This document shows, one piece after another, positions 10,836 through 61,100 of a stretch of 64,000 nt of DNA. The notes under the pieces are model-generated. The model had not been told where the DNA came from. It was given only the letters and a program-made list of their open reading frames with translations, and made no database searches. Numbering within the stretch: the first letter of the stretch is position 1; each line of letters begins with the position of its first letter. The stretch comes from Amphiura filiformis (taxonomy: Eukaryota; Echinodermata; Ophiuroidea; Amphilepidida; Amphiuridae), in NCBI RefSeq assembly GCF_039555335.1, contig NC_092628.1:33502965-33566964 (forward strand), given 5' to 3'. A program made the position numbers and the translations under genes.

Positions 10836-11191
10836 ACTTCATCCACAATGCTATTGCAGAGGTACTTTCTACTTCATCCATAGTACTATCAGAGGGAGTT
10901 CTACTTCACCCACAGGGCTATCAGAGGTACTTCATCCACAGTGCTATCAGAGGTAGATCTACTTCATCCTTAGTACTATCAGAGGGAGTTCTACTTCACC
11001 CACAGTGCTATCAGAGGTACTTCATCTACAGTGCTATCAGAGGTAGCTAGATCTACTTCATCCATAGTACTATCAGCGGAAGTTCTACTTCACCCACAGT
11101 GCTATCAGAGGTACTTCATCTACAGTGTTATTAGAGGTACTTCATCTACAGTGCTATCAGAGGTAGATCTATTTTATCCATGTAGTACTAT
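10836..11191. repeat. Minisatellite block 2
   Basis: Same unit family as 7526-8060 (GGTACTTCATCTACAGTGCT and GTAGATCTACTTCATCC variants). It ends abruptly at TAGTACTAT, where the CCCAGC-ended element begins. The array resumes at 12539, so blocks 2 and 3 were one array before that insertion. Confidence 0.9.
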
Positions 11192-12538: not shown

Positions 12539-13310
12539 TCAGAGGGAGTTCTATACTCATCCACAGTGCTATCAGAGGTACTTCTTCCACAGTGCTGTCA
12601 GAGGTACTTCATCTACAGTGCTATCAGAGGTAGATCTATTTCATCCATAGTATTATCAGCGGGAGTTCTACTTCATCCACAGTGCTATCAGAGGTACTTC
12701 ATCTACAGTGCTATCAGAGGTAGATCTACTTCATCCATAGTACTATCAGAGGTAGACCTACTTCATCCATAGTACTATCAGAGGTAGATCTACTTCATCC
12801 ATAGTACTATCAGCGGGAGTTCTACTTCATCCACACACTATGCTATCAGAGGTACTTCATCTACAGTGTATCAGAGGTAGATCTACTTCATCCATAGTAT
12901 TATCAGCGGGAGTTCTACTTCATCCACAGTGCTATCAGAGGTACTTCATCTACAGTGCTATCAGAGGTAGAGCTACTTCATCCATAGTACTATCAGAGGT
13001 AGAACTACTTCATCCATAGTACTATCAGAGGTAGATCTACTTCATCCATAGTACTATCAGCGGGAGTTCTACTTCATCCACACACTATACTATCAGAGGT
13101 ACTTCATCTACAGTGTATCAGAGGTAGATCTACTTCATCCATAGTACTATCAGCGGGAGTTCTACTTCATCCACAGTGCTATCAAAGGTACTTCATCCAC
13201 ACCAGGTAGTTCTACGTCAGAGGTAGTTCTACGTCATCCATATAGTGCTATCAGAGGTAGTTCTACTTCATCCACAGTGCTATCAGGGGTAGCCTAGTTC
13301 TACTTTATAT
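12539..13310. repeat. Minisatellite block 3
   Basis: Continuation of the 26-32 bp array after the transposon. It shows higher-order structure: a longer block containing TCAGCGGGAGTTCTACTTC, CCACACACTA and runs of GTAGATCTACTTCATCC recurs at about 12795 and 13056. It fades out near 13310. Confidence 0.9.
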
Positions 13311-19488: not shown

Positions 19489-21794
19489 AATAAATAAATA
19501 AAAATAAATAAAAATAAAAATAAATAAACAAACAAACAAACAAACAAACAAACACAGTTATTGTAACCCTTGAAGCCAATATTTTCAAAAATCTTATTTG
19601 CACATTGTGCACTTGATGAAGATTGTGTTTGCTCTTATCGTTTTTTTGCAGTTAACAAGGATTCCTTAAAATTGACAGTTGAAATGCTCAGAATATTTGC
19701 TGCTGGTAAGTTTATTTAGCATTTTAGTAATCCCTTATAATTGGTAGATTAAATAAAAAAGGTGACTTTACAAAGGAGCAGTTTAATAGTCTCTGTCTGA
19801 TCAAATTAACTGGTTGTTCATTGTATAGATAAAGCTAGATAATAGTACCTCAAAAATGAATGTGAACATGTCTTTCTCTACCAGAACTGTTCTCCCAACT
19901 TCAATACTATGTCAATATTATTGTCGCTTAACTTGAATTATATCATACCATATTATCCTACACACACTCTATTTTAGTGGGTAACTAATATCTAACATAC
20001 ATTGTATGTTTTTTAGGTACCCAAGAATGTAAGAAATAAACCTCCTTGCCAGGAGGGGGTAAAAAAAAAAAAAACAGGCATTATCCTGATAGGGAACAAT
20101 CTTCAAGATCTTCTGTCATCCACTGCATACATGCAATCCCACAAGATTTTATTATCAATTTGGCCTTTATAAATTATTCTTGCTTGTTTAGTGGTGCAGC
20201 AGTTAGACAAAACTTTTGTTTTCTTGAAGAAAAGTGGCTTGAACATGTGGTAACTTAACTTAGACAATCATTATGATTGTCTTTAAATGAACTCATTAGC
20301 TCAGTCAGTAGAGCATTTAACCGGTAAACCAAAGATCCTGGATATGATGTTCAGTGGAATTTCTTTCACCTTTCAAGGTGTGTGGTGAGAAGTTTATCCA
20401 ATTATATCTAGGTAGATCTGATGTGTAGATTAAATCCAATTAATTCATTGTCTGTGTTTTCAGAGAGTGCAGGTAGATCTGCTAAGCAAGCCGAATCAGA
20501 ATCGGCGCCTGTAGTGGAGCCACGGCACTTTGAAAAGATTCTACCACAGTTGGTAAGTACTTTGGCTGGGATCAAATGTTCTGTTCCATTGTTAGGACTT
20601 TTTTTAAATTTCAGTGTTCATATCACTTGGAGTAGTGGGCCAGTAGTGTTGTATACATGTATGTAGTGGGGTGCTAAGGACTCTTGTCCACTACTCAGGG
20701 AATCACTTTTTATTCAAGTTGCCTTCAGTTGAAGTGTCAGTCAAGACCCCAATGAGTGACATACTGCATACCTATCTGAAATGAATAATAATGCATTGGA
20801 ATCTTTGTTTAATAACACAATATCTGTTATTAAACATTTTTCAGCCTGTTTTGGGCCTTTTTAAGGCTGAATTCACACTGTTTTCAGGCACTTTTCAAAA
20901 AAAGTCATTCTCATGCCTGTAAATAAAACAAATATATAAATGGCTAAATCTAAAGTATGAATAAATGAGTAAGTAAATATTATGAGAAAATATACAAAAT
21001 CATCAATTTTTACACAAAAGATACTGAATCACGCTTTACTACAGGGTGTCTCTGAAAGAACTGTATCGTCAGAAACTTAATTGTTTGGGTATTTTAACGG
21101 CACAACTAAACATAAGTAAATAACTGGTATGGTTGAGGGATGAATCAGCTATCACATACTTTTCATTTTGACAATTGACCACACCGCGGTTCATGAAATA
21201 TAAGAATTTGACAAAACTCCCTTATTTCCAAACCTTTCCACGGATTCAAATATCAATCAATGATCTGTATTCTGAGTGCTCTCTGCGCATCATCAGCGCA
21301 TGAGGTGTCTATTGTCATTGGTAGATATTTGACTCTGTGGAACGCATTGAAAATGATGTTGTTTCATAAAATTCTTTTATTTAAAAAAATGGAGCGGTCA
21401 ATTGTCAAAATTCAAAAAGTATGTGATACCTGATATATTCCTCAACCACATCGGTTATTTAGTAATAGTTATATTTGGTTTATGCATTAAGATACCAAAA
21501 AAATTAAGTTTCCGACAAAACTGTTCTTTCAAGGACACCTTGTAAACTGATTTACAATGGGCAAATATTGTGTACATGTTAAAAACGGGACTTTGACCAA
21601 AATTGAGGGTGCAATTTGTTTGAAATGCTCCTTTTAACCCCCACCCCACCCGGGCCACCCCACCCCCAAATAAAGACAAAAAACACACATACAGGAGAAA
21701 AACATTGTGGTGCCACACCACCACTGTTAACAGTATAACAGTTAAAAATTGGTTTCATATGAATTTTGTTCTATTTCAGTTGCTTGATTTCTGA
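16245..21794 (+). CDS. CENPX: Centromere protein X (CENP-X/MHF2), complete five-exon gene
   Basis: CENP-X is a small histone-fold protein. With CENP-S it forms the MHF complex, which binds DNA at kinetochores and recruits FANCM in Fanconi-pathway repair. Coding exons are 16245-16280, 19221-19272, 19652-19705, 20464-20552 and 21780-21794, all bounded by AG/GT with matching phases (0, 1, 1, 0). They give 81 aa, the family's usual length. The protein starts MADDNDSATFKT. It has a first helix with ETVQKLLQLSFRDEKTK and a second with LKLTVEMLRIFAAE, and it ends FEKILPQLLLDF, nearly identical to the vertebrate C-terminus as I recall it. The last exon encodes only LLDF plus stop. A possible AATAAA lies at 22428-22433. 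The partner CENP-S gene is not in this window. Identification is confident; transcript ends are not determined. Confidence 0.93.
16458..16738 (+). repeat. Partial copy of the TTAA-AAGGAGT repeat family in CENPX intron 1
   Basis: Contains AAGGAGTGTTTCGTGATTAG, GTTGATTCCGATTTTGCG and an intact palindromic centre, GTTCTGGTGCACCAGAAC, the site that is interrupted in the complete copy at 26157-26828. It ends near GCCAGAGGTTTCCAGTG. Confidence 0.75.
17915..18284. mobile_element. hAT-like MITE with perfect 8-bp target duplication
   Basis: TIRs CAGCCCTCGAATTAA and TTAATTCGAGGGCTG are perfect over 15 bp. GTTGTTTT is duplicated on both sides (17907-17914 and 18285-18292). The interior contains repeated GGCA-rich blocks and no transposase. 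It lies in CENPX intron 1. Confidence 0.88.
18724..18772. repeat. Perfect-stem hairpin
   Basis: The arms TTCTAACTTTCGTAT and ATACGAAAGTTAGAA pair perfectly over 15 bp around a ~19 bp loop within CENPX intron 1. No family was recognised. A run of GGTTGTCCG/CGGACAACC repeats follows at about 19000-19125. Confidence 0.6.
19441..19552. repeat. Compound microsatellite (CAAT)n-(AAAT)n-(CAAA)n
   Basis: About twelve CAAT units are followed by AAAT/AAAAT and then CAAA units, in CENPX intron 2. Pure simple sequence. Confidence 0.93.
20290..20356 (+). repeat. Degenerate tRNA-like sequence, probably SINE-derived
   Basis: TAGCTCAGTCAGTAGAGC matches the tRNA A box/D-arm consensus, followed by CCGGTAAACC where an anticodon loop (GGT, threonine-like) would fall. 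The B-box region (expected GGTTCGAATCC) is badly degraded, so it is not a functional tRNA. A tRNA-derived SINE or a tRNA pseudogene fits. It lies in CENPX intron 3. Confidence 0.45.
21042..21542. mobile_element. TA-flanked foldback element (CAGGGTGTC ends)
   Basis: The ends CAGGGTGTCTCTGAAAGAAC and its diverged inverse (GTTCTTTCAAGGACACCTTG) are flanked by TA on both sides. The arms pair over about 120 bp. TA duplications suggest Tc1/mariner-type mobilisation. Non-coding, in the last CENPX intron. Confidence 0.72.
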
Positions 21795-25684: not shown

Positions 25685-28600
25685 ATGGCATTTCGCGTCA
25701 ATCTCGATTTTTCGGCGATGAAAAGTCGTACCGTTTGGTTCTGTGCATTAGCAAATCTGTGCAATGTTTTTGCTGTGACTTTCATAGTTTTATACTTAAC
25801 TTTCGGGCAGTATCTGACTGCAGAACTATGTATTTATATCACATCTACCTTCCTTGTCGGAGCTGTATTTGTTGTACTGATGTTGAGGAAGAGCCAACTG
25901 TCAAAGAATCGACTTGAAACATTCCTTGGACCGGTTAGAGAAGGACTGATAGCTCACCGTGGTGCGGCTCTGGAAAGTCCTGAGAACACATTACTTGCCC
26001 TTCGAGAGGTAAGCTTAGCTATCCATGCATTATTATTATTATGATTGTATCATGTTGAAAATGCTCATAATACATGTAATTTTCAATAAAAAAATAGTTT
26101 AAAATTTGTTTTTGCATTGAGTAGGCAGCGTGATGCGATTAGTTCGCAACACAAACTTAAAGGGGCATTTCGTGATCCACAGCCTCATCCCCCCACTTTT
26201 CTCAAAAAAAGTTGAGATTTTTATATCACTGGAAACCTCTGGCTACATAATGTTTATGTACAAAATATTTCTTGCAGATTAATTTGTTTAGCAAAGATAT
26301 CGTGAAATTTGAATTTCGTTCTGGTGCACCAGAACCCCGGGGGGGCACTCAACTTAAATTTTGGTAGGGGTGTGCGGCGCGGAGCGCCGAACTTTGGGAA
26401 CTGAGAACTGATTTTCGGGCAAAATAGGGGCTTGAAGAACTGAAATTTGGGCCAAATTATAGGCTGTTGAGCTAAAAAATTCCAAATTTTTTCCAAATTT
26501 GAGCTTAAAGAGCTACAATTGTCAGAGTTTGAGGCTCAAAGAACTGGATTAGATTCAAATGTGGGGCTTAAGGAACTGCCGGAGAGCCTGAAAAAGGGAC
26601 CCTTGACCGCCGCACATACCCGTACCACCTTAACATGTGAGTGCCCCCCCCGGGACCAGAACGAAATTACAACGCATTGTCTATGGAGCAGTGTAATACA
26701 TAAATCATGCATAACTCGTGAACGCAAAATCGGAAGCAAATGAAATTTTGGGAATAGGTTTTTTTCGTGGATATCTAATGAAAAATGACATAAATAGAGG
26801 ATGCTAGGATCACGAAATACTCCTTTAAATAACGGGCAAAACAGACACATCATTTATCGGTATGACATTTTCGTATTGGTGCTGCCCTATCTAAGTTTGC
26901 ACTGAAGTGCCATCTCAGTTTGGTGCGCCGATGTGGATCATGTGTTAATGAATTTTTATTTATTCTGGATAAATAAAGGGGTATTAATTACAATTACAAG
27001 CATAAAAGTTTAGACAAGAAGTACAAGAAGCTGTGTAATTAATATTAGGCCAATGGAACCCGATTATTAGTTTCCGATTGGATGTTTTAAAAAAAGGACG
27101 AGGTCGCTATTTCATTATTCATTATTCGGTCTCTTTTCATTATCCATTATGTCAACAAAATCAATGATTTTATGAACAGCTTTCTCCAAATTTAGGTACC
27201 CCACCAGTACCAAAGTATATAGGCCTATTGTTGATGAAAGACCATCTCAAAACAGGTATTAATGCTTAGAACATCTTTACAGAGAAAAAAGATTTGAATT
27301 TGTTTTCATAAAAATGAAAAGAAATTACCAATTTTTGTAATCAAAGAAACATGATGAGGTAATCCTTAAATTTCCATTATTTACTACATCCTCTACCCCT
27401 ACAACTAAGAAAAGGTGCTGATTATGATCAGCAGGGGATGTCAGACATTTTGAGAGTTTCAATTTTGATTATTTCCATTTCAATGTTCAGATAATTGACT
27501 TTTTTATGAAAATAATGAAAGTTTTGGTCAAATTGAAAAAGAGATGCGGGCGGTCAATAGGAAACTAACAATCGAGTTCCATTAGCCTTATGACAAACAT
27601 GCAACTATTTAAGGGGGTACTACATTGTACACCCCTGTCGTAAATTTCTGACTATTTTTGCATTTTTCTCAAAAAATTATAACACACTGGTAACAAAAGT
27701 TATGTATATTATTGGGGCAAGGAATCCGATTACTACACTGAAATTTTAGTGACTCAAGACAAGCGGTTCAGTATATATGATAGGAAATGAGGTACATCCT
27801 AACGGTACCTTATTTCTTATCATAAATAATGAACCGCTTGTCTTGGGTCACTGCAATTCCAGTGTAGTAATTGGATTCCACGCCCCTATAATATAACTTT
27901 TGTTACCACTGTGTTATTAGTTTTTGAGCAAAATGCAAAAATAGACACAAATTTATCGAGGGGTGTAGTACCCCCTTAAGCTACAGGAGCCTTGTATTTT
28001 TTATAGTGCAACATTGCACTAGCTTTTTGTATACACTTCATCCCATACCGTAATGCAGAGCTACTACGGTATGGGTTCCTCGTACTAGATGCGATGCTTC
28101 CTCTTTTGGGTGACCGCTACGGCGCGGCCACTATTTGGCACGACATTGTAAAAAGCTTCTAATTTCGGGCTTGCTAGATTTACTTCGCAACTGTTTAAGT
28201 GTTTTGCTTAAAAGTTTGCCCAGCTTAAATTAAAAATAAAAACACAACTTGCTTGGTTTTGATTTTGATTTTATTACTGTTTACTAATATGCATTGAATG
28301 CAAGTAAAGTATTTCTATACAGCGGGAATTAACGCTTGAAATACGACATTAATAAAACTGCTTTTATGTCTTTTAAAAACGCTTTTGAAGAGATGGCGCT
28401 ATTACATGTACGTTCGCAGAGTAGGCCTATGATCCAGGTGAAGGGTGACATGATTTGATTTGATGGGGCATTGATGGGGTCTTTGGGTGACAGTAGGGCC
28501 GGCGTCGGCACAGTTTTTTGATGTCAACATGTCGACATATTTCGTATCTTGACTTCATGATTTTAAAAGTTTTAACCTAAAAATATCTAGAAACACCATC

Positions 28601-31600
28601 GGCAATTTCAGCATAATTCAAGATGGCCGTCTTCATAGCGAGCACATAACGATAAAGTGTACAATTTACACCGGAAAACAAGATAAAGTGTACAATTTAC
28701 ACCGGAAAACAAGGCAAAATACTGCCAAAAGTATGACCCCCGAAGGAAAATAACATGAAAAGTTGGCGAAATAGTAGGAAAGATAAGATTTGGCATTGCA
28801 TTTTGTTGAAAATACATTGGAAATGGCCAATATTTTGAGTGAAAATGAGCTTCCCTGACAAAGTTTTACTTGGCCATTGCCTGAGCACTATGTCGCCATG
28901 GACGAAGTTCTGTTGATATGTTGACATTTAAATTCACTTTGTCGACAGGATTCCGACAGAGGACCTGTCGACGCCGGCCTTAGGTGACAGAGCATGTGCT
29001 GGTAATGGAGTCTTTGGGTGACAGCGATGGTAAAAAGGGGGGTCTTAATAGCCCTACATACGCATCACGTCCAAAGCGGATTTCAGCACATCATATCATA
29101 GCTCCCATTGGGTGCCCTATTCCTTTTTAAAGGAATTTTTATATGGTCATTCTGCCAACCAGCAGCCAATCACAACCGTGCACAGTTGCGATATCGCATT
29201 GCGATGTGAAAAGAACAAAATCCAAATCCATCGCTGACCGAAATTTTCACTGTGCGATATGTACCGCATCGGAGAGTCGCATCATGATTTTTGTGTTGTG
29301 GTAAGTACTTGAGAATCATGCTGTTGGACCTTGAAAGTCCTTGAATTTTAACGCTTCGGGGGACCCTGTTATTATAAAAAAAAAACATTTTAACAGCTTT
29401 ATTAGGTCACTGATGTTCATGGCACCAATAAGATGGCAAATTAAATTTAGGGATTTCAGACTGTCTTTCAGTGCATTATTTTGTATCACTCATTTAATAT
29501 AATCTTCCATTTTTCTTTTTGCAGGACTTTTCTTACTCATCTGTAGCCAGGTCGGTGTGATGTTGTCAACAAGATCATCAAGTCTAAAACCATATTTTGT
29601 ACCATATTTCACATTTCAGTCATAATGGTGGTGAATTTTGGTTTAAAAATACTGAAATGCACCTTGGTAAGTATCAGTTATTTAGGTCTTGAGGCTCTCT
29701 CCGCTTCCCTAGAGATGGAATGTTTGGGGTGGTACTCGCTGCTACATGTGCTGCGGAACTACATTTTGTCAATGAAAAACAGGCAGCAAGGAATCAATCA
29801 TAAGGAGGGACGATATGCGAGGGCTCATCTAATTCCATTTCATCTTTTAAATTGCCGTGTTATTCTTTCAGAGAGGAAGTTGATAAATATGGGCTTAATC
29901 TGGAGGTTACTCAGGATGAGGTGGTTACTGTCGTGACCATGATGTTGGATGCTCTACTGGTGTGTAGTTTACCAGTAGGCGGAACTAGAACAAATGCCAA
30001 TCAAAATTTTCTCCTTTAAAACTCATGTTGTACATGTAGATACTCCTGGTGAGAGTTGGATGTTCCACTAGTGCCTATTGCTACAGATTTAAATTTTTAG
30101 CTGAGTGAAAGTTTATTGAAGTTTGCTATTTAACAAAAGGTAAAATTTTTATTTTGTTTAATTTGATTAGTTGTAGAAGCTACATAGATGGGCGTAAAAT
30201 GACTGCCTCGACACATAAGATGCTCAAACTGCACTAGACTAAAATCCATGTCAAATCACTGGCCTCGCATATTTCAAACTACCGGCGTGATGGTCATGGA
30301 AGAAATACCGTAAAACCCCGTCTACAAGCATATAGTGTGCTTCTGATGAAAGCTACATTAATCCAGTCACCATTATAGAGTTTGAGCAAATAAATTACGG
30401 ATCCAAGCATATACAAACAAGTATTATTTTAAGACCGATCTATTGTATTGGTATATTAACGTTTGCTTAGAATTAATTAAGCTTTTATAAAAAACACTTT
30501 ATATGCTTGTAAACGGGGTTTTACGGTATTTGCCGACTATAAAAGAACGGGTTGGTGACAGTGCAAGTTACGCAGATGGTGAGATGCACAAATTTGAAAT
30601 TGATGACATTACTAATTGTTTCCCTTATTTCCAAACCAGGCCAAGAAGAATGGTGCCTCGTCAGTGGAATTTGATCTGGAGATGACCAGTGATGGTGTGG
30701 CAGTGCTCTTACATGATGATACAGTGGACAGGACTACAGATGGCATGGGAGAAATAAAGAACATGACATTTGAAGAAGTCAGGAAACTCAATGCTGCAGC
30801 AAACTTTGGACCAAAGTAAGTCAGGATTTCTGGGTCTTGAAGGGAAAGGCTACATGTTTGTAACTTAGTACAATGTATGACGCATGTGGGTGGAAGAAAT
30901 TTGAGGAATGGAAATGCCTATTGAACAAGTAGTCTTGTTGTACCTTCCATCTTGATCAGTGCAGTTTCATTGTTTTGTGCAAGCTATAGAAAAATTATCA
31001 AATTCGTGGACATCGTGGAACATACTCTTTGCGTGGCTGTGCGTAGTAAGCAGATGTACGCAGATAGCCTCGCTAATATGGACGTGTAGAGTAGCGTTGT
31101 ACGCGTGTGTAGTTAGCATGATTAGTCGCGGAGTAACAAGCGTAGTTGAATGTTCCACGATGTCCACGAATTTGAAAATTTTTCTATAGTGCTTCTTAAG
31201 GGGTTCTCAATAGGCAGCAAAATCAGAGCAAAATATTAGTGTATTTGGTCCTATAAAACACAAATCATTTAAATGATTTTGGCTCTACATTGTCCTTCAA
31301 ATAAATTTGAAGGACCCCTGTACCAGACCTTAATTTGTATTCTTTTGTGTCTTTTGCATGAACAGATCAAACAATAATTTTGAACAGATTCCAACAGTGG
31401 AGGAGGCAGTGCTGCTATGCAAAGACTTGGACCTGAACATCTTTTTTGACGTAAAAAACTATTCCAAAGAGGTACGAGTACAAACATAGATGCATTTTAC
31501 AAATAAAGCACTATAGTAAGAATTCCAATTGAATGAACGCAGCTTTTAACAGCTGCACTCGATCCAACCGCGATCGTATATTGCGTATTTCAAACTACAA

Positions 31601-34600
31601 CGCGAACGCACGACCTTTCATACATGCTATCCAATCACGAGGGCGTTGGCATGGTTGGATTTACTTCCGCGTTACTCACGCACAGTCGCACACGCTCGCG
31701 TACATCGCGCAGTGTACGCAAAAATTCGTCACGCTATTGAAAGCTGCGTTCATTCAATTGGAATTCCCACTATAGTCTTGCCACAATTTGTTTGGTCAGC
31801 CACAAACTGTGTATCTTGCAAGTCAAAGATGAGTGCAATATTTGACTTTCCCATGCAATGTATTCTTATATCACATGAAAGTAAGCCATTTAATATTAGA
31901 AATATATTGATCAGAGTGAAGCTTAAAGTATGTGCGTGCATGCATCATCTGCACACATAAAATATAATATTTGTTAAATAAATATTGTAATCATTCGGGA
32001 ACTTCGAAGAAATTATGCAATATGCGGATATTGTATCACTCAGGGAAGCGATTGAATTGATTCAATTATTTATATCAGCTTTCCAAGTGATACATTAAGT
32101 CTGAATGACATATGTTTCTTTGAAATTCTGGTACCCCGATGACTATGTTCAAATGATGTACGATCGTGTACATTTTTGCTCGGTTTCCACTCGCACCGAG
32201 TTAGGTCAATTCAGAAATAATATTGAATGGTTAATTGCAGTGTGATACAAGAATAAATTGCACTCGATGCATAAGTATACATTGCACTAGTTTTAACCAA
32301 TTGCATTGTTTTTATTTTGTTTAAAAAAGGCGAGCTGATTGTTACTTAATTTATCCATAACAATAGTATGTGTAGTAAAATTCATATAAGTTTTTAGTGG
32401 GCTAAGCTTTCAACTTTTAGACAGAATCTCTACAGATCAAAGGCAAAGTGACAAGACAGTTGTGGACAACACATACATGTAACCATATAAAAGACATTCA
32501 CCCATTGCCATATGCGAGGAGAGCCTCGATCTGGCAGCATGCATGAATGGGAATTGAACCAGTTATATAACATTGCGTAAAGTTACGTAATACTTCCTTT
32601 CATGTCTATTGCCAGTTCGAGGCTCTCCTCGCATATGGCGGAACCATGCAATAGGCAAATATAGGCATGTATGTGGTGACAATTAGACATGGGGGACAAA
32701 GGGCAAACGATAGAAACTATCACTTCCTGCTCTGGAGCAGGAAGTGATATGACATAGGTGGATATTAATAATAAACATGTTAACAGGAAGTACTTACGCA
32801 GACTAAAAGTAAGTGCCATTGCACATGACATGTGCCCTCCCCCCAAAAAAGAAAGAAATTGATTTGGTGTCCTGTTGTCGGATTAAAAAAAATTTACTGT
32901 AAAAATACTAAAAGTACATGTAGCAGAATTCAAGTCAGGAAAATAATTTATTAATTTGTAAAATTCTACCACCCCTGCAAAATATCTCCTAATTAACATG
33001 TTCACTGGTACTGCAAGACTGATTGACGAAAAGGTCACATACTAAAAGGCAAACATATTTATATGTACCCTAACAATATTGTTTTCAATTTATAATATCG
33101 CAATATAATGGTAAATAGTAATAAAGAACATGTATGTTTCGGGTTGGTGTCGATCCATTGATTGGCCATACAAGTTTTTGTTTCAAATGGCCTAAACATT
33201 ATCCTCCAAATATATACTTAAAATTTTATGCAAAAAGTGCAAATATTTTCCATGATGTATTAAATTTAACCAATACACTATTTTTTTGTTTCCTCAGATG
33301 CTTAACTTCCTTGAAGGTCTCTTCCAGAAGTACCCACACTTATATAACAGTGGCATAGTGTGTTCATTCTACCCGCAAGTTATTTACCAGGTACGGGATC
33401 AACTTGTTTTGGATGGTGCTTACAACTTAAAAAGGAATGATATTGCTTTTTCCCTGTGACACCTCCAATTTTGGATCTAATTTTATGTAATTTAACAATA
33501 ACATGGCATTCATATAACTTAAAACTGGCACAATTTATTACACATACCAAGATATAATCTCATGTTTAAAAATAACTGAACAAAGTGCTGTAAGTAATAC
33601 TTTTAGAACATGGCTGCATGTCACACTCTGTGTCCCAAACCCTATGGAATATGCCATGCATGCTGTTGTGTTTGTGCTACCAACTGTAGTGAACGTGTGT
33701 ACTGTATGACATGTGTAAAAAAGATAAAATATTCGGTCAAGGACATCCATGGGTATATATATACCTATCGCCCGAAACTAAAAAGTCTACAATCCAGGTC
33801 AAATTTGTTGGAACACTTTAACATGGGTACTTCAAATATGCCCCCTCCCCCAATCAATGTTTGCAGTTGTTGTTGTTTTGGTCATGCACCCCTAAAGAAA
33901 TTCAACATTGATTGGTGGGGCAGTGGGAGGTTTGTAGTAGCAGGAAACGGTACAGACTTCACACCAAAGAAAGCAAAATTTTAGTAAGTCAAGTATAACA
34001 CTATTTCTGTTTAACAGAAATAAGGTTTACAACAGCCATACTTTTACACAAGTGTTCCAAGTACTTTTGGCTGGGATTGTAGGTACTAAGGCTGGGATTT
34101 TTGGGTAATTTTGTGCCTGGGTACCATATATGTAATGAATGAAATCCAACGTGGCATTACTCTCAACTTGAGAGGAGACAGACTATAGGGACCAAGTATC
34201 AATTGATATTGAACTTTTCACCACAAACTTAGTTACAGAACAGGGCAAGGCTTATTAAAGGCTTATTCAGTGATCCCAGCAAAAGTCCCATTAAAATTGT
34301 GTATAAATGTCCTTAAAGTGTAGAATAAGTCATTAAAATTGCGATTAGGTATTTTTGAAATGGAAAATTGAGCAAAAACAGGGAAAGCAGCAGTACTGGC
34401 AAAGTTAAAGCCCAATTAAAATACATGAAGCTAACTCATGTAAAAAGTCTTATTTTGTCATAAATTTATGGCTTTTTGCTTAACCACTAGCAGGCTATGT
34501 TAGCACTATCTAATTCTATGTCACTAACCAAGGTGCCAAAAACTGAATTTTGATGATTTTTACAATCCTCCGGATGAGCAAATAAATCACTGAATATGCC

Positions 34601-35895
34601 TTTAATGAATGATCTTAGGGTGACTGCACCAGAAATTCAGACCCTAGTAACTGGTAAAAAATAAATAAAAATTGGAAATTGCTCTAATTAAAATTCATTC
34701 TCCAATGCATCATCACACGCTACACACAGCCGACTATCTCACTGTGGATGATGCCATTGACACTGTTTATCTCAATGCTGTTTCCTTTTAATCAAGAAGC
34801 ACCAGTCAATCAGTATGCAGTCAGATGGGGTTGAATGTGACATGTGTTATGTTACTTTCGTTTACAGCTATTTGTGTAATGTATTGAGAAACTACACGGG
34901 ATAATTCATGCCTAGTATGATCATGATGTGACAAATATGGCTATCATTTAAAATATAGTACAAAATAATAAATTGTTTGATAAGTTGCAGTGTCTTTCAT
35001 TTCAGCATTTACCGTAATTCTAAACAAGCAGTTGTACTATTTATTATTTCTCCTTCAGTTGCGACGATGTGATGATCAAATTCTGACAGGCCTAACTACA
35101 GAACCAAACTTTATTCAATCAAAATGTAAAGGTTCTTCAGTGTTTGGCTCTCTGTTGATAACAGTGCTTGATTATTGCTTGGCATGGTCGTTTTACAGCT
35201 GGCTCTGGTTCTTAGTGGGCAATTCAGCGGTTCTTCTCAAACATACAACGGTTTCACGGTGAGTTGAGAAATGGCGATTATTAATCATTTCTGGTGACCA
35301 TCTCAGACTGTATAAATGCAATATTTGTGAAATACTCCTTGGCATCTGATAAGAACAGCTGGGAGGGGGAAGGGTGGGTGGTGCTGAAAATAATTGCCAG
35401 CACAAGCTTTCATTTTGAGGGACCAATATCCTTGTGAAGAGCTAGGATGCAACGGTTGTAGTTGCCCAGTCGTAGCAACAAAAAAAAAAAAAACGGCTTA
35501 ATTTCACACTTAAAAAATGTAAAACTGCCCATTGAGCTTACTATGCTTCCAGGTATAAATACAGAGGTATGCATGTTACATGTACAGTATTCATTTGCAA
35601 CAAAATCTGACACTGCATTCCACCGTTTGATGGAATTGGCACGCGATGACTCTAAAATTGAGTTGTACAAGTATCATCTTGTTATGCAGCATACCAGGAT
35701 AAAGTCATTATCAAGTGACTTGTTTGACAAGTTGTCTTTCTTGTTATTGTTTACTTCCACAGGGATGTTGTCCAGTTCTGGCGAGAACGAGATGTTGCCG
35801 TAGTTACATGGACTGTCAACACCCAAGAGGGCAAGGATCACTTTACTGAACTACAAGTACCAGTCATAACCGATGCAATCAAACGCTCAAAATAG
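25685..35895 (+). CDS. GDE1: Glycerophosphodiester phosphodiesterase 1 (GDE1/MIR16-like), complete six-exon gene
   Basis: GDE1 is a membrane enzyme that hydrolyses glycerophosphodiesters (glycerophosphoinositol, glycerophospho-N-acylethanolamines) to glycerol-3-phosphate and an alcohol. Coding exons are 25685-26008, 30640-30815, 31366-31471, 33298-33390, 35059-35258 and 35763-35895, with phases 0, 2, 0, 0, 2, giving 343 aa (human about 331). Two N-terminal membrane segments (about 17-40 and 46-67) precede the GDPD TIM-barrel. The catalytic HRG motif is intact (H91-R92-G93), as are the ExD metal pair (E118, D120), H133 in LLHDDTVDRTTDG, and D195/K197 in FFDVK. A further hydrophobic stretch lies at about 264-293. 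The start is the first in-frame ATG before the first membrane segment. The introns carry many MITEs; an AATAAA lies at 36716. A tandem paralogue follows at 43164. Very likely functional. Confidence 0.92.
26157..26828 (-). mobile_element. Complete TTAA-flanked element of the AAGGAGTATT family, interrupted by a nested insertion
   Basis: TTAAAGGGGCATTTCGTGAT at the left and ATCACGAAATACTCCTTTAA at the right are inverted, with TTAA at both ends. This is the only complete copy in the window; others at 698, 9478 and 16458 are truncated. Its palindromic centre (compare GTTCTGGTGCACCAGAAC in the copy at 16458) is split by the element at 26336-26654. It lies in GDE1 intron 1. Confidence 0.85.
26336..26654. 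mobile_element. CCCGGGGGGGCACTC-ended MITE nested in another element
   Basis: ACCAGAAC is duplicated perfectly at 26328-26335 and 26655-26662. The ends CCCGGGGGGGCACTC and GAGTGCCCCCCCCGGG are inverted. The empty site is visible in the uninterrupted relative near 16640, which confirms the insertion. 319 bp, non-coding; the 8-bp duplication is hAT-like. Confidence 0.9.
27609..27979. mobile_element. TTAA-flanked palindromic MITE, GGGGGTACTAC family, copy 2
   Basis: The ends TTAAGGGGGTACTAC and GTAGTACCCCCTTAA bound 371 bp closely similar to 22708-23069, including the CAAGACAAGCGGTTCAG inner arm. It lies in GDE1 intron 1. Confidence 0.87.
28496..28980. mobile_element. Putative TA-flanked element with GGCCGGCGTCG ends
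   Basis: GGGCCGGCGTCG at the left and CGACGCCGGCCT at the right are inverted, each flanked by TA. Inside is an exact tandem pair of a 31 bp unit (28651-28681 and 28682-28712, containing GTGTACAATTTACACCGG). No coding frame is supported. Confidence 0.6.
30305..30529. mobile_element. TA-flanked MITE with TACCGTAAAACCCCG ends
   Basis: ATACCGTAAAACCCCGTCTA and the inverse AAACGGGGTTTTACGGTAT bound about 225 bp. Paired arms include CAAGCATATAGTGTG and CACTTTATATGCTTG. The TA at each end suggests mariner-type mobilisation. It ends about 110 bp before GDE1 exon 2. Confidence 0.78.
30984..31189. mobile_element. CTATAG-ended MITE 1 in GDE1 intron 2
   Basis: CTATAGAAAAATTATCAAAT and its inverse (ATTTGAAAATTTTTCTATAG) extend into ~40 bp arms containing TCGTGGACATCGTGGAACAT. 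The 206 bp element has a CG-rich centre with TGTACGCAGATAG-type sequence. Non-coding. Confidence 0.8.
31509..31775. mobile_element. CTATAG-ended MITE 2 in GDE1 intron 3
   Basis: CACTATAGTAAGAATTCCAA and TTGGAATTCCCACTATAG form inverted ends with arms containing TTGAATGAACGCAGCTTT. The centre is CG-rich with repeated GCGT/ACGC words. It begins about 38 bp after GDE1 exon 3 and resembles 30984-31189 in end sequence and composition. Confidence 0.8.
32507..32639. repeat. Inverted repeat, 23 bp perfect arms
   Basis: GCCATATGCGAGGAGAGCCT (plus CGA) at 32507-32529 is repeated in perfect inverse at 32617-32639. The ~87 bp spacer shows no other structure. It lies in GDE1 intron 3 and is probably a small MITE or a remnant of one. 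Confidence 0.7.
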
Positions 35896-43163: not shown

Positions 43164-46100
43164 ATGTTACCACAATTAGTTCTGTTCCGTCAAACGTGGC
43201 TCAAATGTCTCATTGATCTGTCGTTATTCCATGCTGCTATCTTTTGTGGTCTCATCTTGCTATTCAGTCACTGGATAACCTTTGCAGCATGCTTTCACAT
43301 CGCAATATGTTTTGAAGCTGTAACATTGATTGTATTGGTGCTGTTCAAGACTGCTGCACCAACAAAAGTTTGTGTGAAAGCCTTTTGTGAGGGAGAGTTA
43401 CCAATTACAGAACTTGGAAGTGAGAGTAATGATGTTGAGCCTAGTGATGTAGAGCCAAGTGATGTAGAGCCTAGTGATGGAGGATCTGTGAAGTGGGAGT
43501 TTGTCAGAAAGGCAGGTGGTGGACATGATGCACCAGAAAATACCTTGGCAGCAATTCTACAGGTGAGGCTATTAACCCAAACTGTTCCCAACATCAAAAA
43601 AACTGCAGTTCCAAAAGCATATATGCATGGGCAGGTTTCATATGTGATGCGATTGAGGCATCATGCAAACAGTCATATATGGCAACAGGAAGCTTGTCTG
43701 GCCAAATTACAGTATTTTTTTGTATCTTCAAGTGTTGTTTTGCAATGCAAAATTATTTTTTTTGTGTTTGAATTGCCATTTATTTCCCAGCATTCCAATG
43801 GCTGTATAAAATATGTTACCTTAAAAGGTAACTTAGTGTAATGTACAGTGCAGTTCTGCAACCTAAATATTTACAATTGTATGGTTGTTTTGATTTTGTT
43901 CCAGAGCAAACAATACAATGTATCAGGAATAGTTGCTGACCTGAGGGTGACTTTGGATGGGGTGATTGTACTTTGTCATGATGAGTGTGTTGTACGTACC
44001 ACAGATGGCACAGGACAGGTTGCTGAGATGTCATACGAGGAGATTAAAACACTTAATGCTGCTGCAAAATTCAAATCTGCAAATGGGTAAATAAAACTTC
44101 ATTATGTAAAGGGACATTCAGAGGTTTTGAATTTAACTATTTCAGTACTAGTGTTAGATTGTATGTACGTATCAGTTTGAAAAGTTTAGAGAGGATAAAT
44201 CTTCCTGGCATGTCACCGTGATCACATTGTTATTTAGTAGTTTCAATGAATGAGTTTCCTGCATAACCGAATAATACAGTGGAAACATGTTTCTTAACAC
44301 AAGGTACTGAAGCTTACTGATAAACACCAAGTGATTCTAAAGTCCCAAATTTATAACTTGTAACAAACCTGATAACACAAACTCCTGATAACACAAACTA
44401 AAATCATCAGCCCATGCAACTTTGTGTTAACAAGTTTCCACTGTAATTTGTTTCAATGAAATCAACAACAGATCTTAAAGTCACACCAAAGTCTGTATTT
44501 TTCCAATTACATACAGGGTATCGTTTGGTCACGAGTCTGTTCCAAGCCTTGAAGATGCAATCCAATTATGTGACACATTAAACCTCAACATATTAATGGA
44601 CCTTAAAGATACATCAATTAAGGTAAGTAATGGTCAAAAAACTAGTTCAATGCAGGTCAAGTGTCATTTAGTGTCACTTCAGATTGGGTAGATAGTTGAA
44701 AATTAGATGTACCATGACTTGTTTTTAGTTTTATCATGTTTTTATTTAAAGTAATCATGTTTCCATTAATATATGGCTGATAATAACTTTTTTCTAAGAA
44801 TGAACATGAATTATCATATAAGGGTATTCTAAATCAAACACTTGATATTTAATGCGCATTTCATGACTTCTTAGAGGTGTGACATGTGTCTTCCAAGTGC
44901 ATCATTCCACTATAGAGGTTGTGCGTACCATAATTGATTCGCTCCAAACAAAGGATTTGAACCAGTGTCCTTCACCGTAATCATGGCGCAGTGCAGTCAA
45001 TTCAATCAAATGTCATCAACCTATTTGTTCGTAGTGCATTTGTTATGTGTGTGAGACGAACTGTCACGGTAGATTGCAATCATGCTTTTGTTTTTGAGTA
45101 CTCCGCCATTTACGGTAAGATATGCCATATGCACAACCTCCATAAGAAGTTTACACATGCAAATTAGGAAATTAGGGTGGCTTGGAAAAGTTACACCTAC
45201 TGCACCGTAATCATTCACTTTCCATGCTATCCACCGACATGTTTGCGCTGCTGCATTAAAAAGAAATTCATATGCAAACTTCGTGTTATGGAATGATGCA
45301 CTTGCAATTGATCCTCGGGTAAAATTCAGTAGTTGGCTACATGTACATAATATGTTGCCAAGGTACACTGCCCTTCCTTGTATAATCATCTTAGTTCATA
45401 TTATTTCATTTTGCAGATGATGCATGCATTGCTGGTGCTATTTAAGAAGTATCCTTGGCTATATGACAAAGCTGTAGTATGTTCTTTTATGCCATTTGTG
45501 CTCTATAGGGTGAGTAAACAACCATATCATTGGTGTACAAGTGGAACCAAATTGGTCACTGCAGTACTGGATTGATTACAGTGGGAAGCAGCTTACAATA
45601 CTGATCCATTTATTTTCTTTGGCAGTTTCTACCAAAGGTTGCAGCTAATCATCAAGTGATCAAGCAACATGAATCATTTTTAGTCACAAAAAATTAATTG
45701 TAGTTTTGAACAAAAGAAGTCATGTTGTATTACATTTACATGTATACATCACAGCCATTTACCACCTATGTATGACAAACACTTTTACACTACAGGATTC
45801 CTGGCTACAGCGTACCTCTGCTGCCCTGATACTTTGCAGCTACTACCGCTGCTGCTACCGAGTACCATTACCCGTGGTGGCCTATGTCGGTACTACACTA
45901 AAGTGCTAACATCGGCCACCATACAGTAGATACCCCCATATAGCCGAGTACCTACATTGGTACTCCACCATGCGTCACCTAAGAGTCAACTGCCGTGTAC
46001 AGCTGAGCTGGTGACTTATAGGCACACCATAGTCTCAGGTACTTCGATGGTTATTCAGTGGAAGTACCTGCACCGTAATCACATCCATAGTGTACCCATG

Positions 46101-49100
46101 TGTCAGCAGTGAAGGCACTCTCCTGCAGAGGTACTCCGTCGTTAATGACCTTTATATGTGACACGATCTGGTCCATGGGGCCAAAGGAGGCATTTTTGAA
46201 AATTGAGTTACTGTAATTTTTACATTATATGGTCAATTCCAGCCAAAGCGGGTCAAAATTCTCTCTGGTGGCCATTTTGAAAATGTTTTCCTTTTCAATT
46301 CTAGACTTATCAAATGAGACGATCATGTCTAGTGAATCATCAGGTGGAAGTGCCATCGGATTGAAAAATAACTTTTCTTGCTAGACCAAATAAAGTGTTC
46401 AATGCGCATATGCATGTTACCCACAATTCAAGCATTTTTCACCTGTTGTACGCCATAAAATTTCACTTTCTTTAATATCTTTCAATATTTTATGTGTGAC
46501 TCATATACACTAGAAATCGGTGAAGACTTTGAACGTAAAATAGAATTTTATTACATATATCTACAAAGAAATATTTTGGTTATTACAAATTTTCAGAAAG
46601 AACCAGGTGTACAGTTAAGATTGTGTCAATTCTTCAAACTCTTTCCAAAGTGGCTGTCATTTAACATTACTGTATTATTTCGATAGATTAGAATAAATGC
46701 TTCATATAAATATAAAGTAAGATTGTGTATCTGGGCGCAGGATGAGGATCTCGGATGGATTCGTGGGTAACAGAGTCTGGAAAATAGCAATTCCTATTAA
46801 TTTTTTTTTAATAAAAATAAAAAATACTTTTCCGTATGTCAATAATTCAGGCTGCAATGGCACTAAAATGAATTTTAATCAAAATACAGACTACATGGAA
46901 TATTTAGAATGGATCATTATGGCATTTTGGGTATAAAAATTTTGAGAATAATGAAGTTGTCAAATTCAAATAGACAGAGCAAACAGTTTTATATTATTAT
47001 TTTAGTAAAATCATTCCATATTTTCATGCAGCAATATTCTATTAACTCGTGTTTGACAGTTCCTATGAACTAAAACACTATCAATACATTGTTAACTATA
47101 ATTTAAGTAGGGATTCGTGGGTAACCAAAATGTTCGTGGGTAACACATATTTGAAGGTATGTATTGGTAAGCGGCAAAATAGAAAATATTACAGAAGGTT
47201 GGAAACCACCATGCGGTTATTCCTCCATTGTGTTTCAATGATTCCCGCTTCTCTAACCAATTGCATTTACCCAAAAAATGGTAATTTAGGATAATCAATC
47301 AAAACTTCATGATGCAGCTTCAGTATACCTTCAAGAGGACGCTATTAAACAGGACTGTTTTGGAACCTATTTCGCATGTTTTCAAAATGTTAAGATGCAT
47401 AAGAAACATATAATTTACTTAGTAAATCCTTGGATTCGTGGGTAACGCCAATTGTGGGTAAAGCTATAAGTGCTATAGTACCGCTTTGGGGTTTGCGTTT
47501 CTTAGGTGTATAAACTGTAAGTACTGTCAAAATTATATCATACCCATGGCTTGAATATGTGCTGATTTAAACTTAAAATAAACAATCTCCTTATTTTTCA
47601 AGGTTAGCATCTATTCGGGATTCGTGGGTAACAAAAGTTTAAACCGTCAGAGATTCTTTTTTAAAGCGGTGAACGATTTATTACGATTTACAATTTTAAG
47701 CGCTTGTCAAACTAAATTCAGTGTCCAAAGTCATTTAAATGTTGATTTAAGTTATGGCAATTATATTTGCTGGACTCGTGGGTAACAGTTGATACGTGGG
47801 TAACGTCAAATTTGATTTTATGGAATTTTATGGGTAAAACGTATTTGCATAAAATAATCACTTGGACCTCAGAATTATAGAACGAAACTTCGTTTCATGA
47901 TATAGTCATTTATGGCATATTCACTTAACATTTTTCAGAACGATCATTTTATTTTTGATACGCTGGTAACAAAATTATTAGCCAAATTGACTTAATGGCC
48001 TCTAGAGTCCACAAACATTGGTGGAATTCAATCGTTTTACATATGATGAGAGATCATGCAAACGTCTTTATAACGGTAATAATTTCATTTTGATTGAAGG
48101 ACATTCAATGACATATATGGTGTTTTGTCTTTTAGTTCGTGGGTAACGCCAATTCATTTAAGCTATCATAACTTGTCCCCTGGTATGACTTGCTAGTAAA
48201 GGCCTATATGCACAAAGAGACCACATTGGACGTGACATGATATGCTCCATCAATAACGTGATTTCCTTTATTAATGACATTTTAAAGTGGAAAGTTAACA
48301 TAGAGAGAATTTTGTACCGCTTTCGCTGGAATTGACCATATACATACAATAGGCTATGACATTTACTGAAAACACCAAAGGTCTAGCATACTTGGTTCTA
48401 AAGTTATGAAGTTTTTAATGTCTATTTTCTTATGTATTTTATTGTTTTTATACTTTATATTTTTACCTTTATCTCAGTTTCAAATTTGCTGCCTTTAGCC
48501 CCATGGACCAGATCGTGTCACATATAACCCAACATTTAATCAAAAACGTTTGAATGAAACCAAAAAGTCATCAAAAATCCCACTTGTTTGGACAAGATTA
48601 TTTCCGCCTTCCCTCCGGGATTTCATTTTTGTTCTTCCATCATTGACCCTGTGGAAAAAATCATGATACTGCCACTGCACTGATCACATTGGTTCCTTGT
48701 TAGGTGAGTATATGTATATACACAGTTGCACCTTTCATTTTTTACACAAGCCAGTTAGGCAGGTGACCTACTAAAAGTTACTAGCCCAACAACTCTGACA
48801 CTCAGTCTGACAGAAAAGTTAACAGCCACCGCCTCTCGGGATGGTGTCAAAAGTACACTTAGTAGCATTAACCACTACAGATTTTATCTCTAAAGAATGA
48901 GATGCACCAGGAGAGGGGATATTAGAGGGAATGTTCTGATACCATACACCATGTGACTCTGGTTATGACACAGGTAGTTGAGCTTTCCCTCTTTTCAGAG
49001 AAGTGGAGCAAAACAACTAATTATTTAGTCACTAACCAGCCACTGTTATGACTATTATTTTTGATCAATTTCAGATAAGAAAGCATGATAGGAACATTAT

Positions 49101-50631
49101 GACAGGGCTACGAACAAGGAAGAACTACCTGGAGTGGAATTACATTGACCCACTGGATCCAAGCTGGTGGCAGTGGGCCATGGTAGTTGGAGACATGGCC
49201 TTAACATGGTCTGTGTATGCCTGGCTCTGGTACTTTTGTGGAATTTCATTTGTGTTGCTTTACAAGGATACAATTTCAAGGTAAAAAACTTGGAGAGTTT
49301 GTGTTTTTCAATTTTAAGTATAACTCTCAAAGCATTAGCAATTCAAATGATGAAGCAGCAGTAGTCATTTTAACATGTTTTAGTTGTATTCTACTGAGAT
49401 CACACCACTAAATCAGGTCCAACCCTATCTGACTGAAGAAATAATGACTGGTGTTTAATTTGCTGTACATATCAGGTACATTAAAATGGAAAAATAAAGT
49501 TTGAAATGAAGGCTGATATGCCAATTTTTGGTGATGTTAGCATAAAAAGATAAAAAATACTACAATTCTGAAATTTTATGAAGGTTTTTTTTGTTCCATG
49601 GACCAACTTATGTCACAACATAGAGGCGCTAAGCTGTAGAGTTTGGTATGGTTTACATCCTGTTCCATGCACCACTGCGAAAAATCGAGCCACTCTACTA
49701 CCAAAAAAATGCTGGTTCTAGGGTAGAATATATCATGAACTTTTGGAAAAATTGTGTTGTGAATGAACGATGATGTTATAGCCATGAGAAAATGACGATT
49801 TCTTGGGTACCTTTTAACACATAAAAGAATAGGAACTTTATTTAGTGGTGTGATCCCTACTACATAAGATGATAGATCCTTTAAATAAAATAAAAAACCT
49901 TCATTTGAATTGTTGCATATATGGCTATTTCCCACATTTCCATTCAAATTGGTTACAAGTCACATTAAATTAGTTTCTTCTACATGTTTCTTCTGCTGAT
50001 GATATTTTCAAGAAATTAAATCCAATTTCAACACCACTAAAATAGCAACACATACAAAACCTGGAAGACTAAGCCTTGAAGTGCTTTAATTTAATTACTG
50101 TGTTCATCAATCGAAATTATTATGATGGTTGAAATGTCTTGTGTATGAGTGAAACATTGATCATAGTTGGCAGTGGTGATTCAAACCCACCCTTTTTATT
50201 TCAAACCCACCCTTTTTATTTTATACCCTTCATACCAAAACACATCCTTTCTAAGCGTGATTACTAATAATGTAGATAAGTGGTTATGATGGTCCAGGAG
50301 GTGCAGATTTGCATCCAAAGAAAATTACATATTGAAGTTTTAGATGACCATACTGGTGGGTAGTGGGTACCAAAGTGTTATAATTTTCCCTCTTTTTTCC
50401 CCTGTTGTTCATTTCAGACAAGTGTTGGATTTGTGGAAGCAGCAAAATGTTTGTGTTATAGCATGGACTCTGAATGATGTCAAAGAGAAATACCACATGA
50501 CAAATGTGTTTGGTATACCAGTTATTACAGACTTGATGGGATCAGATGATGAACCGGACAGAAAGCGTAAAGGAAAGGCTTCTAAAAAAACAAGTAAACT
50601 CGAGACAATAAGGAAGTGCATGACGCGTTAA
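43164..50631 (+). CDS. GDE1-like paralogue with degraded active site (probable pseudoenzyme)
   Basis: Tandem paralogue of the gene at 25685. Coding exons are 43164-43562, 43905-44086, 44517-44622, 45417-45509, 49075-49280 and 50418-50631, with the same phases (0, 2, 0, 0, 2) and near-identical internal exon sizes, giving about 399 aa. Two or three N-terminal membrane segments (about 12-62) are followed by an acidic linker with DVEPS repeats and the GDPD domain. The HRG motif reads K116-A117-G118 and the first metal Glu is V143. D145, H158 (LCHDECVVRTTDG), D222 and K224 remain. The segment WSVYAWLWYFCGISFVLL matches the family's C-terminal hydrophobic region, and the tail (after about 370) is rich in Lys/Arg. 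No frameshift or stop is seen. ATG 43164 is the first in frame; an upstream exon is possible (acceptor at 43121). AATAAA lies at 51527. The phosphodiesterase activity is probably lost. Confidence 0.85.
43431..43475 (+). repeat. In-frame 15 bp coding minisatellite (DVEPS x3)
   Basis: Three tandem copies of GATGTWGAGCCWAGT encode DVEPS repeats in the linker between the membrane segments and the GDPD domain of the second GDE1-like protein. Being a multiple of three, it can vary in copy number without frameshift. Confidence 0.9.
44275..44445. mobile_element. TA-flanked CAGTGGAAAC MITE
   Basis: TACAGTGGAAACATGTT and AACAAGTTTCCACTGTA are inverted ends of a 171 bp element with TA on each side, consistent with Tc1/mariner-type mobilisation. 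It lies in intron 2 of the second GDE1-like gene, about 70 bp before exon 3. Confidence 0.82.
46153..48526. mobile_element. 2.4 kb inverted-repeat element with repeated TTCGTGGGTAAC motif
   Basis: TATATGTGACACGATCTGGT at the left and ACCAGATCGTGTCACATATA at the right are exact inverses, probably TA-flanked. The arms extend about 200 bp (TGGTCAATTCCAGC against GCTGGAATTGACCA). Between them lie eight same-strand copies of TTCGTGGGTAAC or a one- to two-base variant, at about 46760, 47114, 47133, 47435, 47631, 47775, 47793 and 48136, in otherwise AT-rich DNA. No transposase frame is visible. It occupies much of intron 4 of the second GDE1-like gene. A fragment of a similar end (TTCCATGGACCAACTTATGT) lies near 49595. 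Confidence 0.82.
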
Positions 50632-58179: not shown

Positions 58180-61100
58180 TTAAGCTGTGCGAAATAAAAT
58201 CCTGTCCAAATCTTCCATTTCAACCTTCCTGGTAGAAGTTGACTTTTCTTCGGATGGCACCCCAGCATATTTGCAGTCAGGCGTTTGAACTGTTTGTTTA
58301 GGTGCGTTGTAAAAGCGGGTAAACCCTTCCTCCTCGATAAAGCTTAGAACTTCATCTTTGAATCGTGCATTAAACTCTTGTACGTTACGAGCCAGAACAA
58401 AGAGGGTTAGTCGATTTGAATCTGTCACAACTGCATATTGGTAGAGAGGAACACTGGGGTAACTTTCTTCAAGTGGTCCAAGTTTTATAATCCAATCTGA
58501 AACGAAAGGTGCAAAATAATAAATAAGAAAGTATACAATGTATGTCAAGTTTCAAACTGAAATACATGTAGTAACTCTGGCGCTTAGCTATAATGGGATT
58601 GAGACGCACATTTGCAGGTTTACGTGTCTATAACTCTGTGTATCGATGATTTGCTCAAAACCCTTTACACTTTTGTGGATGGAGCTCTTCATGTTTGCAT
58701 GTTTTAAAAGCGTTCGATAGTAAGCACATAATCATGCTAACTGTCGAGTTTTTACAGTAGAGGACTGGATTTTGCCGGTTAGTATCGGTTTTGGTCACTG
58801 TTACACCAACCCGAATCTTATTACAGCTCATTCAAATAATCAGCAAAGACTACACTGTCTAGAGGGGCTCTGCTCACTGCCGGCTTTATCCATTTTAAAC
58901 ATTAAATGTGGGATCGCTGTGTGTGTATATATATTTATGTGCAGCGGAAAATGTTAACCTTTTGTAAAAAAACGTTAACTCTTAAGCTTCTTTGTCCCGG
59001 GTTCTTTGTATCCCCCTCCTCACCCCTTCCGACTGATACCATATCCGGCTTGAAATGTAAGGGGGGGGGGGGGGTCTGCCTGAATTGTCAAAAAGTGGCT
59101 GAAAAGAACAAAAATGGGTAATTTTGCCGGGGGATACATACGCGTCCCCTTGCCCTGCCCCACCCTACCCCCGGGATCGACGCCCATATGACTGATACGC
59201 CATGCACTGATATTTAAAGGGAAGATTGGAATGCCATCTTTCCCAGGGAAAGCAACCAGCAGGTCCAGACCATGGCCAGATAACATGAGTAGGTTTATTT
59301 TACCTTGAAGGCATGGACACTGACAGTCTTGCAAAAATGGGCCAACTTTCCCTAGACCATCCAATATGCTATGAATTAGTAGGACTACAACTGCTCTACT
59401 GGTCAGTTTATACTCTTATTTTTACATCTGTTATTTTTATATGAAGCTTTAACTTACATTCGCCAGGTGGTCCTCCAACACTCGGAAATATAACGGCGAG
59501 TTTTGCTGGTTCCTTGGGGTCAGGCATGTAAGCAAATCCATTAATTACTGTGCTATTCTCACTCTCTGGGCTTCCGAGTCGTGCGTTGTTTTCTACGGAA
59601 ACAGTACCATCAAGGTTCAAACCATCTAGCGAAAGAGAAAAAAAATCCTCAATTCATTTCAAATTTGAAAAAGTTTCAAGATAATTTTAATACGTTACAC
59701 ACACCTTTATGTTTCTTAAGCATTGAGGGGGTACGGGACAAAGTGAACTAGATTACTACATGACATATAATAAGCACTAATGTGCAAAATTTATAGGAAA
59801 AAAAACCGCTTCCACGGTTTTTCTTTTTTACTACGAGCTTAAAACTGAGGTAGTGATAGTAGGGGAGGGAACACTCAACACAAATGACCCCGGCAAATGA
59901 CCAAACGGGCGGCTCCCTGAAATACCCTGTGTTTTTACATTTAGGGAGAGTGGGGTTAGTATAAAAATCACGGAAGAAGCCTGGAATTAGGCAGTATTTT
60001 TGTCTAATTTATTATACAAATGGGTCATTGTGTGGATTTCTACTATTATACTAGGCCTACCGTTTATATTCCAGAAAAATACAGCACTAATTTTTTGGAA
60101 TTAATGAAAATATCATCTTATTTTGCCAAATGAAACATAGTTTAATCTTAATCCTTTAGTTAGTTCTGGCAATAGAAATGTTTGGAAATAAGGGCTAAAA
60201 ACATGCGTTTTTAAAGTTGTGCAAAGAGCCAAAGACTAATTTCAAGTTACGCATTCATAACCAATTATCAAAAATAACCTAAAATATTTGAAGGCTACGA
60301 TATGAATGGGTCATATTCTACGGTACTGTAAATTCGGCTATTACCCAGTTTCACAAACTTACAATCGGCAGTTACACACACGTTGTCCCTTTCAAAGGTT
60401 GAAAACACAAACCGATTGGCATACATCTATAATTAAAAGAAAATAACGCAAATTAAAAAAATGAAGGCAGTTGCTAAAAAGAAGAAGAATAGAAATTCCA
60501 TTTAAAAGGGAAAGCCGGGTTCATTGGGTAGTACTATTGATTTGTTGGGAGTGGCCTTTCTTTTCCTTGTTCTTCCCTTAATTCTTTCTGTTCTCTTCAT
60601 AGGCCAACATGTTTATATAAGCTTTTAAGGCTTGGCTTAAGCATTTTGCTTGAGCCTGGTCCAATCAGGACCCAAGCGTGGGTCCACCCAGACCGACCGG
60701 TTAAACAAAGAAGAAACAAACATACAGAAAAGGGACCGCTATATATTATAGGCCTATTATTCATATATCGATTTTGACTTCGCTGCCGGATTCGCTGCAC
60801 GTGGTAGGGCTATCGGTCAATGCAAAGTATATAGGGAGCCTTTTCTACATCGAGTCTTTTCTTGTATAGACGTTCTGGGTTTTTTCCATTTATATAAAAA
60901 GTCCACATTAGACACCAAAGTTTATTTTAGAAAATAAAACATTAGATTACCATAAAAACGATACAGTAAAGTTTGGCGGGGTCTAATATAATTTTTACAT
61001 AGATTATCACCATCTTTTCAATCTTAATTTTCACTAAAATAAAAAAATGGCGTATAGGCTATAAAATTAAAATAAAACGCCTACTTTACCTTCTAAACCA

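Follow-up and report, generated by a model that had tools for sequence, protein, structure and literature searches.

The window, a stretch of 64,000 nucleotides from contig NC_092628.1 of Amphiura filiformis, contains two tandem six-exon genes for GDE1-type glycerophosphodiesterases. Both lie on the plus strand and are separated by approximately 7.3 kb (Table 1). Rebuilt exon by exon, copy 1 spans positions 25685-35895 and encodes 343 amino acids, and copy 2 spans 43164-50631 with 399 open codons. The five introns of copy 2 are all of the GT-AG type, leaving its ten splice sites intact, and the introns of copy 1 are likewise GT-AG. Intron positions and phases (cumulative 0, 2, 0, 0, 2) are identical in the two genes. 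The rebuild confirms the claim of an earlier sequence-only reading that six exons, splice sites and phases remain open in copy 2. The two proteins are only 34% identical over 359 aligned positions and therefore do not represent two alleles. A tblastn search with the six exons of copy 2 as queries found no further GDE1 copy in the window.

Table 1. Coordinates of the two GDE1-type genes and of other features of the window.
Feature	Position	Strand	Content
Copy 1 exon 1	25685-26008	+	H91-R92-G and PENT intact
Copy 1 exon 2	30640-30815	+	E118-x-D120 and H133-D134 intact
Copy 1 exon 3	31366-31471	+	D195 and K197
Copy 1 exon 4	33298-33390	+	
Copy 1 exon 5	35059-35258	+	
Copy 1 exon 6	35763-35895	+	Stop TAG
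Copy 2 exon 1	43164-43562	+	Two hydrophobic N-terminal segments, D-V-E-P-S repeat linker, then VRKAGGGHDAPENTLAAILQ
Short tandem repeat, copy 2 exon 1	43430-43479		15 bp, in frame, 3.3 copies; DVEPS units
K116-A117 in copy 2 exon 1	43509-43514	+	Replaces His-Arg; part of VRKAGGGHDAPENTLAAILQ
Copy 2 exon 2	43905-44086	+	V143 (43932-43934) for metal ligand Glu; D145, H158 and RTTDG kept
Copy 2 exon 3	44517-44622	+	K224 retained, with D222 at the third metal ligand position
Copy 2 exon 4	45417-45509	+	VCSF motif
10-mer CGTGGGTAAC in copy 2 intron 4	46762-48147	+	Eight occurrences
Copy 2 exon 5	49075-49280	+	WYFCGIS segment
Copy 2 exon 6	50418-50631	+	ITD with D367 retained; extra basic tail at the C-terminus; ends in TAA
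C-terminal tail of copy 2	50539-50628		30 residues, including the basic run RKRKGKASKKTSK
Minisatellite, three arrays	7536-8056, 10832-11165, 12557-13292		Consensus TACTTCATCCACAGTGCTATCAGAGG
Probable CENP-X exon	20460-20555 (approximate)	+	Reads ...VEPRHFEKILPQL, then GT donor
Probable lipocalin exon	58180-58551	-	Part of a minus-strand gene downstream of copy 2

Several other features were observed in the window. Two exon candidates score below their Pfam cut-offs: the CENP-X candidate matches PF09415 with an E-value of 0.001 and 19.8 bits (curated cut-off 25), and the lipocalin candidate matches PF24976 (Lipocalin_10) with 25 bits (cut-off 27). The three minisatellite arrays belong to a single family with units of approximately 26 and 32 bp and higher-order repeats of approximately 90 and 247 bp. 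All eight occurrences of the 10-mer in the window fall within intron 4 of copy 2 and on the plus strand, compared with 0.06 expected by chance; their spacing is irregular. An Rfam search of the window found no family.

Both proteins match the Pfam GDPD profile PF03009 (cut-off 23.6), copy 1 with 125.4 bits and copy 2 with 80.6 bits, and the copy 2 match begins at profile position 3, past the H-R positions. Kyte-Doolittle windows place a hydrophobic stretch at residues 13-71 of copy 2. This stretch suffices for two segments, making a membrane placement like that of mammalian GDE1 plausible. The mammalian protein carries two membrane segments and has its active site on the luminal side (PMC10188492), and glycerophosphoinositol and N-acylethanolamine synthesis are among the substrates and pathways assigned to it in the cited part of PMC11314389. 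Copy 2 has in common with GDE1/MIR16 the domain order, the N-terminal hydrophobic segments and the VCSF motif. In blastp comparisons with a provisional human GDE1 sequence, copy 2 gave 40% over 260 residues and, in the reverse direction, 37% over 323. It aligns along its length with copy 1 and with the provisional human sequence, in a comparison that covered these GDE1-type proteins alone. The repeat linker and basic C-terminal tail are features of copy 2 relative to GDE1/MIR16. The linker joins the membrane segments to the GDPD domain; copy 1 contains neither the repeat nor the tail.

GDPD enzymes are characterized by the motif HR...EN...ExD...HD, in which two histidines are catalytic and three acidic residues bind the metal (PMC4926365). 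In pfGDPD numbering, His17 and His59 act as general base and acid, and Glu44, Asp46 and Glu111 bind the metal; changing any of the three metal ligands to Ala inactivates ttGDPD from T. tengcongensis, according to the cited passages of the same paper (PMC4926365). Arg18 and Lys121 stabilise the transition state (PMC9842563). PI-PLC and GDPD fall within one CATH superfamily, and PI-PLC has an Arg at the GDPD metal site while keeping the His equivalent to His17 (cited passages of PMC9842563).

The active site of copy 2 departs from this arrangement. Copy 1 has H91, R92, E118, D120, H133, D195, K197 and D337. Alignment of the two proteins places K116, A117 and V143 of copy 2 opposite H91, R92 and E118, the replacements that the sequence-only reading had described. 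Its retained pairs D120/D145, H133/H158 and D195/D222 were also found at the numbers it gave; the constant offset it assumed is actually 25, then 27 past a 2-residue gap, a trivial slip. In all, copy 2 keeps E125-N126, D145, H158-D159, D222, K224 and D367. The family motif is incomplete, with EN, D and HD present and H, R and E replaced, and two of the three metal ligand positions are acidic (D145 and D222), the Glu having given way to V143. The H-R pair and ExD are kept in human GDE1 (provisional sequence) and in copy 1, but not in copy 2. Two basic residues of copy 2, K116 and R147, are absent from copy 1. When copy 2 alone is aligned by phmmer with the enzyme of PDB entry 2PZ0, K-A falls on the H-R of this enzyme and V on the E of its ExD. 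An alignment of 80 prokaryotic relatives agrees, and the register at the HR site is therefore independent of pairing the two copies.

The lost positions are encoded by AAG, GCA and GTT. By a count on the genetic code, each codon lies at least two base changes from any codon of the residue it replaces (His, Arg or Glu), amounting to at least six changes in nine bases, so that a one-base sequencing error is not the cause. Reading the sequence by eye at the HR site of copy 2, we found no HR in the other two forward frames. Copy 2 combines an intact gene with lost catalytic residues.

The prokaryotic sample consists of the best 80 of at least 564 relatives, ranked by similarity to copy 1 and found by a scan that used four PDB fragments together with the core of copy 1; plasmid searches do not enter the counts. 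An initial prokaryote scan that used the two-copy alignment found no relative. Among the best 80, the positions lost from copy 2 are occupied by His in 80/80, Arg in 79/80 and Glu in 80/80. Since E-x-D and HD...DRT were among the scan patterns, the way the sample was found accounts in part for the 80/80 of Glu and likewise of the second His; no scan pattern contained the H-R pair. At 20 columns, at least 95% of the sample (at least 76/80) agree. Copy 1 departs at one of these, a conservative Glu to Asp change (D195); copy 2 shares this change (D222) and in addition deviates at H, R and E. Losses confined to copy 2 thus affect three of seven catalytic columns and none of the 13 others (one-sided P = 0.03, a post hoc test in which the seven columns, H, R, E, D, H, E/D and K, were our choice). 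At the 34 columns conserved in at least 80% of the same sample, there are 28 matches for copy 1 and 23 for copy 2. The further departures found only in copy 2 are S134 (Ala in 73/80), N138 (Gly in 68), V163 (Asp in 72) and D207 (Glu in 66). The lower count indicates that copy 2 has also lost conserved residues outside the active site and that the rest of the barrel has changed as well.

The two copies share 127 identical residues at 337 aligned positions. Fourfold sites in conserved codons match in 23/60 cases, and aligned third positions match in 33% compared with 26% by chance, indicating that the pair is old and near saturation. In an LG+G4 tree, the path from the common node is approximately twofold longer for copy 2 (1.05) than for copy 1 (0.50). 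Copy 2 therefore appears to be evolving faster, which is compatible with relaxed constraint. Even with the catalytic columns removed, 66 of the 80 prokaryotic outgroups are closer to copy 1 (mean matches 21.9 vs 17.1), a count biased by the use of similarity to copy 1 in ranking the sample. Rate counts with the provisional human GDE1 sequence as outgroup gave 40 vs 30 sites, which is not significant (chi-square 1.43). In a tree of the two copies, the provisional human sequence and 25 of the 80 relatives, copy 2 groups with human GDE1 (UFBoot 87). None of the three branching orders of copy 1, copy 2 and the provisional human GDE1 was rejected in three samples of 20 of the 80 relatives, with AU replicates too few for a firm test. 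The pair may accordingly date from about the time when the vertebrate line diverged, or it may be younger, with a copy 2 that evolves fast.

One way to explain away the lost residues is a gene-model artefact, in which the true copy 2 transcript starts with a different first exon and a normal HRG. Exon 1 is indeed predicted from sequence and carries the repeat at 43430-43479. The sequence-only reading had named an alternative HRG exon among the observations that would count against it, and none was found in the window: the sole HRG...PENT match in six frames is that of copy 1, and tblastn found no other, in a scan that would miss an HRG interrupted by an intron or located beyond the window. K-A moreover lies in one exon with PENTLAAI, and the E-to-V change falls in exon 2, which bears the rest of the motif, so that we regard an artefact as highly improbable. 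Nor do we expect copy 2 to be catalytic by altered chemistry, with Lys or Arg replacing the metal in the manner of Arg69 of PI-PLC. H158, D145, D222, K224 and D367 would be available to such an enzyme, as would the basic K116 and R147 that copy 1 lacks, and PI-PLC offers the precedent of an Arg where GDPD has metal (PMC9842563). However, PI-PLC keeps the equivalent of His17 (PMC9842563) and copy 2 has lost it, making this a very unlikely account.

A more serious competitor is an early pseudogene, in which the function of copy 2 has been lost and stops have yet to accumulate. The apparently faster evolution of copy 2, its 23 vs 28 matches at the 34 conserved columns and the loss of active-site residues are all in its favor. 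Against it, the ten splice sites and every phase are intact, as are 13/13 non-catalytic columns conserved at 95% or above, and simulated neutral drift sufficient to alter the catalytic codons leaves stops. The simulation was neutral and substitution-only, with our own parameters, and started from the present copy 2 coding sequence. At 0.05 substitutions per site, the probability of no stop was 0.043 and that of at least five of nine catalytic bases being changed was 3e-5. The corresponding values at 0.1 substitutions per site were 0.002 and 7e-4; at 0.2, 0/1000 runs remained open and the probability of at least five of nine changes was 0.013. Neutral decay, so simulated, fits copy 2 badly. The result argues for long constraint, as a simulation and not as a dN/dS test, and decay that set in recently, following a period in which selection was relaxed only on catalysis, would leave an open frame as well. 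On balance, we consider an early pseudogene unlikely.

We favor, with a probability of roughly 0.7, the reading that copy 2 is a membrane-anchored GDE1-type pseudoenzyme kept by selection, with a pocket that perhaps binds a ligand or partner without cutting it. Catalytic loss in an intact, probably selected gene was also the view of the sequence-only reading, and the gene models, the alignment of relatives and the decay simulation bear it out. Copy 2 keeps most of the conserved residues of the GDPD TIM barrel, and its active site lacks the first of the two catalytic histidines, the Arg that stabilises the transition state and one acid of the three that bind the metal. Judged from these residues, normal two-histidine, metal-assisted hydrolysis should be beyond it. 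The basic pocket residues K116, H158 and K224, whether kept or gained, could hold a phosphate head group; candidate ligands include a glycerophosphodiester, the head group of a lysophospholipid or a partner of GDE1. Copy 2 might then shield substrate from its active neighbor, modulate that neighbor or bind GDE1 partners. The sequence-only reading had suggested lipid sensing, control of the active paralogue or a scaffold function as possible roles. Its product thus probably binds or regulates rather than cuts.

Inactive members of the superfamily are already known, namely PRIP and fungal GDPD-like sequences. PRIP has a PH domain and other domains, is cytosolic, and differs from copy 2 in belonging to another family. 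As an inactive relative of PLC-delta1 that keeps PI(4,5)P2 from metabolising enzymes, according to the cited part of PMC6726632, it provides a working analogy for copy 2. In fungal GDPD-like SMaseD/PLD sequences, the active-site His and Glu are replaced non-conservatively, and the authors think these proteins functionally diverged (PMC6299612). The replacements seem to fall at the same motif positions as the losses of copy 2. The fungal sequences form a distant branch that is not GDE1, and the cited passages describe no tandem active copy (PMC6299612). Arabidopsis SHV3/SVL1 are GDPD-like proteins for which a signaling role has been proposed (PMC9412048, cited part). They are GPI-anchored plant proteins, unlike copy 2, and the likeness lies in the GDPD-like class and the proposed signaling role. 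No report of a GDE1 pseudoenzyme appeared among the literature matches listed, which come from a coverage that excludes most subscription journals.

A bolder proposal, which we consider doubtful, is that an old, selectively kept pseudo-GDE1 lineage in tandem with an active GDE1 forms an enzyme/pseudoenzyme pair, possibly a heteromer or a substrate decoy, in glycerophosphodiester or N-acylethanolamine metabolism, and, going further still, that vertebrate GDE1 has its orthologue in copy 2 rather than in copy 1. In that case, the orthologue would be dead and its neighbor would do the chemistry. As pseudoenzymes go, the loss seen in copy 2 is an ordinary kind of event. A natural twin that has the fold residues without the chemistry, beside an active-looking copy, would offer a direct means of separating GDE1 catalysis from binding.
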